DNA from: Lysobacterales bacterium 66-474
GTDB taxonomy: Bacteria > Pseudomonadota > Gammaproteobacteria > Xanthomonadales > Rhodanobacteraceae
Direction of reading: 5' to 3'
DNA: 64,000 bases
NCBI GenBank assembly: GCA_001899805.1
Contig: MKWP01000001.1
Span: forward strand, 67,001 to 131,000
Shown: in pieces, positions 55,967 through 58,720 of the stretch
Layout of the letters: each line of letters begins with the position of its first letter
Numbering within the stretch: the first letter of the stretch is position 1
Program-made: the position numbers and the translations under genes
The notes under the pieces: model-generated
Told to the model about the DNA's origin: nothing
The model's database searches: none
Seen by the model: only the letters and a program-made list of their open reading frames with translations

Positions 55967-56449
55967 CTACTTCTTGGCCTTCTTCGTGCGCTTGGTCTTG
56001 CTGGCGCGCGAGGTCTTGGCCATCACGGCCTTCTTCGCGGTGCGCTTGCGTGCCGTTTTCTTGGCGGCGCGCTTGCGTGCCGGTTTCTTCGCAGCCTTCT
56101 TGGCTGCCTTGCGGACGGTCTTGCGCGCGGTCTTGCGCGCGGTTGCGGTTTTGGCTTTCGCCGGTTTGCGGGCCGCCTTCTTGGCGGGTTTCTTCGCAGC
56201 TTTCTTGGTTGCCATGGTTCGTCTCAGCTCCTCATCAGTTGGCAGTGGTTGCCCAGTAAACGCATGCAGAAACGCCTCGCACAGAAGATCACTGTTCGTG
56301 GCGTGCCGCAGGTTGGACACTTGACGACGTGTGCGCTCGTCGGAAAGCAGCCGGAGTACATGCATCGGAATCGAGACGGTGATCTTCCGGACTCTCTCGG
56401 ATTTGTGACCGTGCTCGATGTACGGTTTGATGTACTTGGCAGTCGGCAT
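55967..56449 (-). CDS. metJ: MetJ methionine repressor fused to a histone-H1-like basic tail
   Basis: A 160-residue protein. Residues 5-77 match MetJ closely: the ribbon-helix-helix strand [29 protein letters not shown] and [20 protein letters not shown], including the S-adenosylmethionine-contact region. MetJ represses methionine genes when SAM is high. Where E. coli MetJ continues with its last 25 or so residues, this protein has 82 residues (79-160) made almost only of Lys, Ala, Arg, Thr and Pro ([14 protein letters not shown] and similar), like bacterial histone-H1-like proteins. The frame is continuous across the joint. Met79 could also start a separate tail protein; GAGGAG lies 12 nt before it. 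Confidence 0.87.
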
Positions 56450-56606
56450 GTTTCCGTCGTGCTACATGTCGTCGGGCGGAAAGCTAGCCCCATGCAATCA
56501 CGGTGTCAATCAATTTTTTGCGTCGAATGAAGCCCTTGCAAACGTCCGACACCGCGCGGACCCGGCCACGACATCGGATGCCGGCCCGCGAATGGATGCA
56601 ACCCGC

Positions 56607-56622
56607 AGACGTATAGACGTCC
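56607..56622. promoter_or_regulatory. Tandem met boxes (MetJ operator)
   Basis: AGACGTAT (56607-56614) and AGACGTCC (56615-56622) are adjacent 8-bp matches to the met box AGACGTCT (6/8 and 7/8; on the minus strand GGACGTCT and ATACGTCT, each 7/8). MetJ binds such boxes cooperatively as arrays of two or more. They lie 158 bp upstream of metJ over a possible weak minus-strand promoter (TTGCGT, 19 bp, TATACG), so autoregulation with a long leader is likely. Confidence 0.65.
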
Positions 56623-56891: not shown

Positions 56892-57287
56892 TCAGTGTTC
56901 GTCGTTCTCGATCAGTTCGGCGTAGTCATCGGGACCGAGCAGCGCATCCAACTCGTCGGGATTGCCAGCCTTCACCACGAACAACCAGCCGTCGCCATAG
57001 GCGTCTTCGTTGATCGTTTCCGGTTTGTCGGCGAGCGCTCCGTTGACCGCGACCACTTCGCCACTGACCGGCGCGTAGATGTCCGACGCCGCCTTCACCG
57101 ATTCGACCACCGCGCAACTCGCGCCGGCCTCGACCTTGTCGCCGACCTTGGGCAGTTCGACATAGACGAGGTCGCCGAGCAATTCCTGGGCGTGATCGGA
57201 AATGCCGACGCGCACCTGGCCCGCATCCTCGACGCGAGCCCACTCGTGGGACTTCTGGAATTTCAGGTCGCCGGGTATGTCGCTCAT
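56892..57287 (-). CDS. gcvH: Glycine cleavage system H protein
   Basis: A 131-residue lipoyl carrier protein. The lipoylated lysine is Lys65 in ESVKAASD, preceded by the GDLVYVELP strand and followed by SGEVVAVN. It shuttles the aminomethyl group between the P, T and L proteins of the glycine cleavage complex. Its start has AAGGAA upstream, and gcvT lies upstream across repeat copy C; gcvP is not in the window. Confidence 0.95.
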
Positions 57288-57345: not shown

Positions 57346-57480
57346 TTGTTGTGGAAAGCCAGGCCACGGAGCTCTTGGCCATGGATGGCGGCTCTATGGC
57401 CGTTCTGATGTCGGCGACCAGCGCGCCTGGCTCGATGCGATCCGCCCCGCCGAAACCGCGATCATGGATGATCGTTCAAA
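57346..57480 (+). repeat. Interspersed repeat family, copy C
   Basis: About 135 bp: GTTGTTGTGGAAAGCC, ACGGAGCTCTTGGCCATGG, ATGGCCGTTCTGATGT, ending in GCGATCA-TGGA-TGATCGT (57458-57475) and TCAAA. It lies between gcvT and gcvH, both leftward, and the TGA stop of gcvT (57476-57478) is part of its right end. Confidence 0.77.
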
Positions 57481-58720
57481 TACAGCTCTTGCCATCCCTC
57501 ACGAACGGATATTTCACCACGCGCAGCGGCAGTTCGCGCCCGCGGATGTCGACGCGCAAGCCTTCGCGGGCGCCGGTCGGCACCCGCGCGAAGCCGATGG
57601 CCTTGCCCAATGTCGGCGAGAAGATGCCGGACAGGATCTCGCCGTCGCCGGATGGCGTGACCACGCGCTGGCCATGGCGCAACACACCCTTGTCTTCAAG
57701 TACCACGCCAACCAGTTCGCGCGGCACGCCGGCGGCACTCTGCTTTTCCAGCGCGGCACGACCGATGAAATCGCGTCCACCGAGCTCCCGGTCATGGACG
57801 GCGCTTTCCAGCGCCACCGTCCACCCAAGTCCTGCTTCCCACGGCGTGATGTCCTCGTCCATGTCCTGGCCGTACAGGTTCATGCCGGCTTCGAGGCGCA
57901 GCGTGTCGCGCGCACCCAGTCCCGCCGGCCGTACCCCGGCTGCGGCCAGCGCATCCCACAGCGCGACCGCGTGCTGTTCGGGGACGATGATCTCGAAGCC
58001 GTCCTCGCCCGTGTAGCCGGTGCGTGCGATGAACAGCGGCATGTCGTTTGGACCGCGCGCTTCCGTGGCGACGAATTTGCCGAGCTTGTCCACCCTCCCG
58101 CGATCGTCCGCATGCAACAGCCCCAGTACCTTTGCGCGTGCATTCGGCCCCTGCACCGCGATCATCGCCAGCTCGGGGCGTTCGGTCACTTCCACGCCGT
58201 AAGCCGCCGCCTGCTTCCCGATCCACGCAAGGTCCTTGTCACGCGTGGCCGCGTTGACCACCACGCGGAACCATTCCCTTTTCGAATCCGCGCTGTCGTG
58301 CGCGGATTCGACACGGCCAGTCCGGCGGATGTCCGGACTGGCCTTCGCCTCAGCCGTCGCCGACGCTCCGGCTTCGCGTGCGGGCCATCCCTGGCCCGCG
58401 TCCTCTTCCAGGTAATAGGTGATCAGGTCGTCGATCACCCCGCCGCGCTCGTTGAGCATGCACGAATAGATGGCCTTGCCCGGCTTCTTCGACTTGCCGA
58501 TGTCGTTGGCCAGCAGGTGCCCGAGGAATTCGCGGCAGCGCGCGCCGTGCAGGTCGACCACGGTCATGTGCGAGACGTCGAACATCCCGGCGTCGCGGCG
58601 CACCGCGTGGTGCTCCTCGATCTGCGAGCCGTAATGCAGCGGCATGTCCCAACCGCCGAAGTCGACCATCTTCGCGCCCGCGGCGCGATGGGTGGCATTG
58701 AGGACGGTCTGCTTGGTCAT
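57476..58720 (-). CDS. gcvT: Glycine cleavage system T protein (aminomethyltransferase) with in-frame insertion
   Basis: A 414-residue tetrahydrofolate-dependent aminomethyltransferase, about 45 residues longer than usual (about 365-370). [26 protein letters not shown] and [12 protein letters not shown] are conserved. Between TYYLEED (about residue 107) and EWFRVVVN (about 149), where other GcvT proteins have only a short loop, lie some 43 extra residues rich in Ala, Asp, Ser and Arg, encoded by a palindromic repeat (58274-58402). The frame is intact, so the enzyme may still work if the insert loops out. AGGA is 7 nt before the ATG. No glycine riboswitch is visible upstream. Confidence 0.92.
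58274..58402. repeat. REP-like palindromic element inserted in frame within gcvT
   Basis: About 129 bp (43 codons) with three perfect hairpins in a row: CGAATCCGCGC (58283-58293) with GCGCGGATTCG (58300-58310); GGCCAGTCCGG (58315-58325) with CCGGACTGGCC (58333-58343); GCGGGCCA-TCCC-TGGCCCGC (58380-58399). The third has the same 4-nt GGGA-type loop (minus strand) as the terminal hairpin of the interspersed repeats nearby. The element has no stop codon in the gcvT frame. Confidence 0.75.

Follow-up and report, generated by a model that had tools for sequence, protein, structure and literature searches.

MetJ repressors of the Rhodanobacteraceae carry a histone H1-like tail that is predicted to be made as a separate protein as well

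The protein that we describe here, MetJ-H1, is related to several systems that are already known. It resembles the methionine repressor MetJ of E. coli (PDB 1cma, 1mj2, and 1mjl) in sequence and in having tandem met boxes; unlike E. coli MetJ, it lacks the C-terminal part, ends in a basic tail, and contains an element that is predicted to serve an internal start. As in MetJ-H1, an N-terminal domain is followed by a long, disordered Lys/Ala/Pro tail in AlgP and PhaF of Pseudomonas, where the H1-like tails are proposed to bind DNA and to anchor granules to the nucleoid (PMC9239181). However, the N-terminal domain of AlgP/PhaF is helical and is not MetJ, and a nested start is not mentioned in the available text of that article. 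The tail of MetJ-H1 is similar in composition and length variation to Chlamydia Hc2 and to the H1-like proteins of the NCBIfam families NF038052 and NF038053, but it scores far below their curated cut-offs, and its ORF is nested within metJ. Finally, in Salmonella SpaO/SpaO-short and in the AerR isoforms, as far as the available accounts go, one gene gives a long and a short product by means of an internal in-frame start. In contrast to those systems, the predicted short product of metJ-H1 is a different kind of protein, which has a gene of its own in another family of the order.

Methionine regulation in the order Xanthomonadales has been attributed to another protein. According to the available text of Leyn et al. 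2014 (PMC4239095), MetJ was found in none of four Xanthomonadales genomes, and SamR was proposed as the methionine regulator; SamR is a distant homolog of SahR (ArsR family), not of MetJ. With our results, MetJ is also known from a family that does not belong to the groups named in that text. Among the matches listed when we searched the mostly openly accessible literature, no paper described a MetJ with an H1-like tail, and those pairing MetJ with histone H1 were unrelated by title. By a term search, neither Xanthomonas nor Xylella nor Stenotrophomonas occurs in PMC3228920.

The metJ-H1 gene lies in a window of 64,000 nucleotides from Lysobacterales bacterium 66-474 (Table 1). The initial annotation proposed that this gene encodes MetJ fused in frame to an 82-residue Lys/Ala tail, and this was borne out: the ORF on the minus strand runs through the joint in a single frame without a stop, and its MetJ part exceeds the cut-offs of both the Pfam family PF01340 (E = 1.7e-40, 137 bits versus a cut-off of 25) and the NCBIfam equivalog NF003622 (142 bits versus a cut-off of 110). 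From the tail's first residue on, the protein consists of Lys, Ala, Arg, Thr, and Pro.

Table 1. Features at the metJ-H1 locus, in coordinates of the window.
Feature	Position	Strand	Evidence or remark
metJ-H1 ORF, 160 amino acids	55967..56449	-	ATG at 56449, stop at 55967
MetJ part, residues 1-78	56216..56449	-	PF01340 and NF003622; the Pfam match covers residues 4-82
H1-like Lys/Ala tail, residues 79-160 (82 residues)	55967..56215	-	Also the predicted free protein from Met79
Internal ATG (Met79), predicted second start codon	56213..56215	-	Met in 106/107 genes
Conserved nucleotide element, metJ codons 63-78	56216..56263	-	Abuts the internal ATG
Shine-Dalgarno-like GAGGAG, codons 73-74	56228..56233	-	Anti-Shine-Dalgarno duplex energy
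Likely sigma70 promoter of metJ-H1, TTGACA-17-TAGCTT	56481..56509	-	Read by eye
Tandem met boxes	56607..56622	.	14/16 to consensus, either strand
gcvH, syntenic marker	56892..57287	-	GcvH, 179 bits over 117
gcvT, further upstream of metJ-H1 than gcvH	57476-58720		GcvT, 451 bits over 300

E. coli-type MetJ was the only kind of solved structure that the protein matched significantly (best PDB match by sequence, E = 2e-35). The AlphaFold model of MetJ-H1 is of modest confidence (mean pLDDT of 63, rising to ~78-84 across residues 31-80), with helices at residues 29-44, 52-65, and 72-83 and an unstructured tail; no ribbon-helix-helix strand is modelled in this monomer. The only significant PDB match for this model from Foldseek was MetJ 1mjl (E = 2e-6, 67% identity), with TM-scores of only 0.32/0.47 and an rmsd of 10.5. 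Residues K22 and T24 correspond to K23 and T25 of E. coli MetJ, which we take to be the DNA-contacting lysine and threonine of the strand, and both are invariant in the 30 sequences that we compared. As the fusion is conserved across the family (see below), it seems a fair reading that MetJ-H1 is a MetJ with a DNA-binding tail.

To see how widespread the fusion is, we tallied MetJ by family, by hand, in 397 genomes drawn evenly across the order. MetJ was present in 166 of these: in all 150 genomes of the Rhodanobacteraceae (family f1 in our numbering), in 11 of 25 genomes of family f9, and in all five genomes of family f11. It was found in none of the 152 genomes of family f2 and in none of the 65 genomes of families f3-f8 and f10. 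We also found MetJ in 227 of 233 Rhodanobacteraceae genomes, representing 26 of 26 genera. In an even draw of 370 genomes across the class, three genomes outside the Rhodanobacteraceae had MetJ, each with a full-length C-terminus and no tail.

We then collected 159 metJ loci, which comprise 132 distinct genes (that is, genes with different first 300 bases). Eighty loci are from a named collection that includes Dyella, Rhodanobacter, Luteibacter, Tahibacter, Frateuria, Dokdonella, and Oleiagrimonas. By our rule, 108 of the 132 genes were marked as tailed; we removed L035, an untailed f9 gene that passes the rule, which left 107. The other 24 genes were 18 true untailed relatives, five genes cut by contig ends (L023, L089, L124, L130, and L131), and L073. 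L073, from genome G116, has an in-frame TGA within the MetJ part, while its element, H1 frame, and tail are intact; this could be a sequencing error or an early loss of metJ.

The initial annotation had called for a search for the tail among homologs across the order, and it had named a frameshift or a stop at the joint as what would speak against a fusion. Of the distinct Rhodanobacteraceae genes whose joint could be read, all 107 continue in frame into a basic tail, with no frameshift or stop; 104 of the tails can be read to their stop, and three are cut by contig ends. No Rhodanobacteraceae gene that could be read beyond the joint was untailed. An assembly artefact is therefore ruled out as the origin of the fusion. 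One of the tailed genes (L115) belongs to Dyella jiangningensis SBZ 3-12, whose genome is complete.

The tails vary in length from 34 to 309 residues, with a median of 98 (103 complete tails with the initial Met), and 106 tails together contain 36.7% Lys and 34.2% Ala, with just 0.06% Asp plus Glu. Their resemblance to described H1-like families is weak: the tail scored 23.9 bits against NF038052, whose cut-off is 135 bits, and NF038053 matched L046 with 30.9 of the 80 bits required, with position 1 of the model aligned to residue 79. When we searched for the tail by sequence score, we recovered only the query locus and one congener and missed a genome that does have the tail (G145), so negatives from that search are uninformative. 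We used a Lys/Ala pattern in the DNA instead, which still misses the tails of G106 and G091. The source genome also contains a further ORF (C16:63596-63865; L244, L248, and L252) in which MSNETTFPWSITEEPAAAP precedes Lys/Ala repeats, possibly giving the cell a second H1-like protein.

In contrast to the Rhodanobacteraceae genes, the MetJ proteins of families f9 (11 genes) and f11 (five genes) are short and untailed, and end near residues 79-95. An E. coli-like C-terminal region (after residue ~85) is absent from these proteins as well as from MetJ-H1, and it is not needed for scores above the Pfam and NCBIfam cut-offs. Because the untailed proteins are short too, the tail need not have replaced the C-terminus of MetJ, and the initial claim that it did was overstated. 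In the f11 genomes (L074-L078), where MetJ ends at ~80 residues, a frame that looks by eye like a glycosyltransferase lies closely downstream.

The MetJ part looks to be still functional as a methionine repressor, given the box pairs that lie upstream of metJ, upstream of metX, and in the intergenic region of a CysB-like gene and cysG. The tandem met boxes reported upstream of the gene are real, and they are the only exact AGACGTNNAGACGT in the source genome and the only pair in the window that matches at 13 or more of the 16 positions. When the 400 nt before metJ were scored in 106 genes, the best tandem met boxes matched at 12.3 of 16 positions on average, as compared to 9.5 for shuffled sequences, and in 97 of the 106 relatives the best pair was 165-193 nt before metJ. 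A promoter-like TTGACA also occurs within 110 nt of metJ in all 106 Rhodanobacteraceae genes. In the window, the boxes precede the likely -35 box by ~100 bp, and their position does not by itself show simple autorepression.

Allowing one mismatch, met-box pairs occur at eight places in the source genome. Three are plausible: upstream of metX (379 bits as homoserine O-succinyltransferase, cut-off 296), in the intergenic region between cysG and the CysB-like gene (which falls below its cut-offs), and upstream of gltB. The remaining places are within or next to unrelated genes. The pairs at CysB-like/cysG and upstream of gltB (L195 and L198) match at 13 of 16 positions. These sites hint that the MetJ regulon may reach sulfur assimilation. 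Met boxes with up to two mismatches were noise, with 123 matches as compared to 197 for a control pattern. According to the available text of a proteomics study of Rhodanobacter thiooxydans FW510-R12 (PMC12146267), nitrate raised the level of MetJ, which the authors call a putative repressor, and lowered four enzymes of methionine biosynthesis. That text does not contain the word histone and does not specify which MetJ product, long or short, was detected. R. thiooxydans LCS2 is among our tailed genes (L129).

The initial annotation preferred a single fused protein and mentioned, as an alternative prediction, two overlapping products: full-length MetJ-H1 and a short H1-like protein from Met79. 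The fusion is real and family-wide, but the order of these two readings no longer stands, as the second product has become the weightier one; it is strongly supported by the retention of Met79, by frozen codons before it, by a Shine-Dalgarno sequence, and by a stand-alone gene in family f2. First, Met79 is kept in 106 of the 107 genes. Elsewhere in these 106 tails, Met accounts for just 43 of 10,095 residues (0.4%), and 23 of these 43 are at the second residue after Met79.

Second, the codons before Met79 are conserved at the nucleotide level. Observed over expected synonymous diversity is 0.28 across codons 63-77 (15 sites), versus 0.85 across codons 5-62 (37 sites; Mann-Whitney p = 1.1e-6). 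Many of the frozen codons are otherwise rare in these genes. ACT65, GGG66, and CCA70 are each present in 106 of 107 genes, while ACT, GGG, and CCA have usages of 7%, 11%, and 12% in codons 5-64; AGA76 is found in all 100 genes with Arg at that position (usage of 4%). Also, CCA68 is found in 96 of the 97 genes with Pro at that codon, GAG73 in 106 of 107 genes, and GAG74 in all 107 (usage of GAG, 51%). The freeze is incomplete: variation is seen at codons 64, 72, 75, and 77, and synonymous diversity is also low at some codons further upstream (49, 52, 53, and 59). Codon 78 is Thr in 70 genes, Asp in 20, and Ile in 6, and is absent from 10. The 16 untailed MetJ genes of families f9 and f11 have no such freeze in this region.

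Using a pattern for the core of this element, we found it in 149 of the 150 Rhodanobacteraceae genomes and in none of the 247 other genomes of the order; a reversed control pattern gave one match in the 397 genomes (in G057). The element was not found in plasmids or in viral contigs.

Third, the element includes a strong Shine-Dalgarno sequence. Every one of the 106 genes scored has a predicted anti-Shine-Dalgarno energy between -8.1 and -8.6 kcal/mol upstream of Met79 (mean -8.4), as compared to means of -5.3 kcal/mol at metJ's own start and -1.8 kcal/mol at random codons. The distance from the Shine-Dalgarno sequence to the ATG is 12 nt (9 nt in ten genes), which is above the usual spacing. 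There is also little predicted structure around Met79: the mean folding energy of the -30 to +30 region is -6.6 kcal/mol, versus -10.3 kcal/mol at the metJ start and -15.0 kcal/mol mid-gene. The lysine codons after Met79 are 95% AAA at codon five, 70% at codon ten, and 10% beyond codon twenty; at other positions the share of AAA is low.

Could the element have another role? An RNA structure or riboswitch within it is ruled out: it folds no better than shuffled sequences (z = -0.19) and has no consensus fold, and Rfam gave only chance matches in this stretch of the window and nothing convincing in four loci. Readings as a sigma-54, sigma-28, or ECF promoter, as a hammerhead-like core, or as a +1 frameshifting site were dropped because, by eye, the spacing or the conserved positions do not fit. 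With no conserved fold, a start signal alone leaves the fixed bases ~40 nt upstream unexplained. The element might instead act as a DNA site or as a promoter within the gene, and not in translation; its conservation by sequence instead of by fold, and its extent of ~48 nt upstream of the ATG, would both fit that idea. However, we could not recognize -10 or -35 boxes in the element by eye, it abuts the ATG and contains a near-invariant Shine-Dalgarno sequence, and the H1-like genes of family f2, which are described below, have a promoter-like site much further upstream. Overall, we consider a DNA site or promoter unlikely.

The one Rhodanobacteraceae genome (of 150) without the element core, G091, is informative. 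In this genome, the Met at the joint is replaced by GTG, with a weak Shine-Dalgarno sequence (-2.2), and the gene differs at codons 66, 67, 68, 70, 71, 73, and 76, while ACT65, CTG69, and GAG74 are retained. That the element and Met79 were lost together supports the reading of the element as a start signal. G091 nevertheless keeps a 140-residue in-frame basic tail despite the loss of most of the element, which suggests, from this single case, that the fused tail is valuable by itself.

These observations also bear on whether just one of the two forms of the tail is made. If MetJ-H1 were the sole product, then the Met at the joint would be a relic of the fusion, and the codon freeze would serve some other purpose, such as a pause for MetJ to fold ahead of tail synthesis. 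The open frame in every gene, the rarity of many of the frozen codons, and the tail of G091 are what one would expect from this. But a pause would accept any rare synonym, yet the exact bases are fixed; the near-universal Met and the uniform Shine-Dalgarno energy also argue against it, as do the joint loss of Met79 and most of the element in G091 and the related element in a non-coding leader in f2. We think a single product is quite unlikely. Conversely, if only separate products were made, MetJ would be released (for instance through processing close to residue 78), leaving the tail to act solely as a free H1-like protein. This would fit with the free-standing H1-like ORF in f2 and with the untailed MetJ proteins of f9 and f11, which end near the position of the joint. 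Against this, none of the 107 genes has a stop or frameshift although codon 78 varies, and the tail of G091 remains in frame with most of the element gone, so we view the separate-products explanation as very unlikely.

Instead, it is probable that this one gene yields two DNA-binding proteins, MetJ-H1 and a free H1-like protein that starts at Met79. The frozen element, the retention of Met79, and the free-standing H1 gene of f2 together put most of the weight on the second product. Translation from the metJ start would give a methionine repressor with a long, disordered, and highly basic tail, and translation from the internal ATG would give the free H1-like protein, presumably with both made from one mRNA. 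In its final ~15 codons, the MetJ part would also serve to load ribosomes at the second start; this region has a strong Shine-Dalgarno sequence, little structure, and a fixed upstream sequence. MetJ-H1 would repress the met regulon with extra non-specific affinity for DNA, and the free H1 would coat DNA or polyphosphate more generally. The tail might also let MetJ spread along DNA, and a link between SAM and the nucleoid is possible. If so, the locus offers a testable case of a metabolic repressor and a nucleoid-type protein from one gene, across a whole bacterial family.

The second family of the order, f2, has no MetJ, and its genomes contain an H1-like gene that stands alone. The order comprises two families according to the available text of PMC7470346, and from that account and the number of genomes, f2 is most likely the Xanthomonadaceae (Lysobacteraceae). 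In G243, the H1-like gene lies between gcvT-gcvH and LemA-like and HtpX-like genes; the window has these flanking genes too, but metJ is missing from the G243 locus. (In the window, HtpX is below its NCBIfam cut-off, and LemA was identified by eye.) G310, another f2 genome, has the gene order gcvT-gcvH-H1. The H1 protein of one f2 locus (L253) did not match any NCBIfam model at E ≤ 0.01.

Parts of the element are found before these genes. A pattern with both of its conserved boxes was present in 9 of 33 f2 genomes (one per genus), always 7-10 nt before the ATG of the H1-like gene; it was absent from all 13 genomes tested from other families and from G091. Since the nine f2 loci were picked by this pattern, the conservation of the boxes among them is by construction. 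The boxes fall on the MetJ codons for TGQ and TDEE, and their distance from the ATG is almost unchanged in f2; at the protein level, TGQ and TDEE are shared with untailed MetJ. A pattern with just the lower box and the H1 start was found in 235 genomes: 131 of 150 from the Rhodanobacteraceae, 104 of 152 from f2, and none of the 95 from other families (tallied by hand; the control pattern gave no matches).

We also examined 19 of the f2 loci from the latter pattern, which were found without using the upstream box; these are from eight genera, with nine of the genomes from a single genus. All 19 have an H1-like ORF with gcvH upstream, and gcvT was seen too in 18. A promoter-like TTGACA site is present 316-439 nt before the H1 ATG in 18 of the 19 loci. 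The upstream box was exact and within 75 nt in nine loci, eight of which are from one genus; in another eight, six or seven of the eight bases were present at the usual distance; and in two, it was found only much further up. Leaving out the Shine-Dalgarno sequence, 10 of the 19 genomes have a leader that is more similar to the metJ 3' end than 99% of shuffles are (p < 0.01); the shuffles preserve base composition only. Nine of these 10 genomes are from one genus and the tenth is from another; the rest had weaker or chance-level resemblance.

The simplest history appears to be that the ancestor had a metJ that overlapped H1 and that metJ was lost in f2 while the element was kept. A loss of metJ in f2 would fit with the report by Leyn et al. 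of SamR, instead of MetJ, in four Xanthomonadales genomes, as given in the available text. We can also imagine, as a speculation that we rate as possible but doubtful, that the 3' end of metJ sets the amount of free H1 in a SAM-linked manner, that MetJ-H1 is a SAM-gated repressor that spreads along DNA, and that the element survives in f2 as a non-coding leader. If this is true, then SAM-dependent control of metJ would also set the amount of a nucleoid protein, and coding sequence would have turned into a 5' UTR in f2 after the loss of metJ. This would suggest a route from coding sequence to regulatory leader following gene loss.

The region upstream of the f2 genes has features of its own. 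In nine f2 loci (L260-L268), up to ~400 nt upstream of the H1 ATG is a long non-coding leader, which contains a TCCGCC...GGTGGA-like stem and, mid-leader, a hairpin that resembles an intrinsic terminator. There was no convincing match to Rfam in the leaders of L253 and L254. The consensus folding energy of the nine sequences is -55 kcal/mol, versus a mean of -3 kcal/mol for shuffled columns, and the leader is a candidate for an attenuator or a novel leader RNA.
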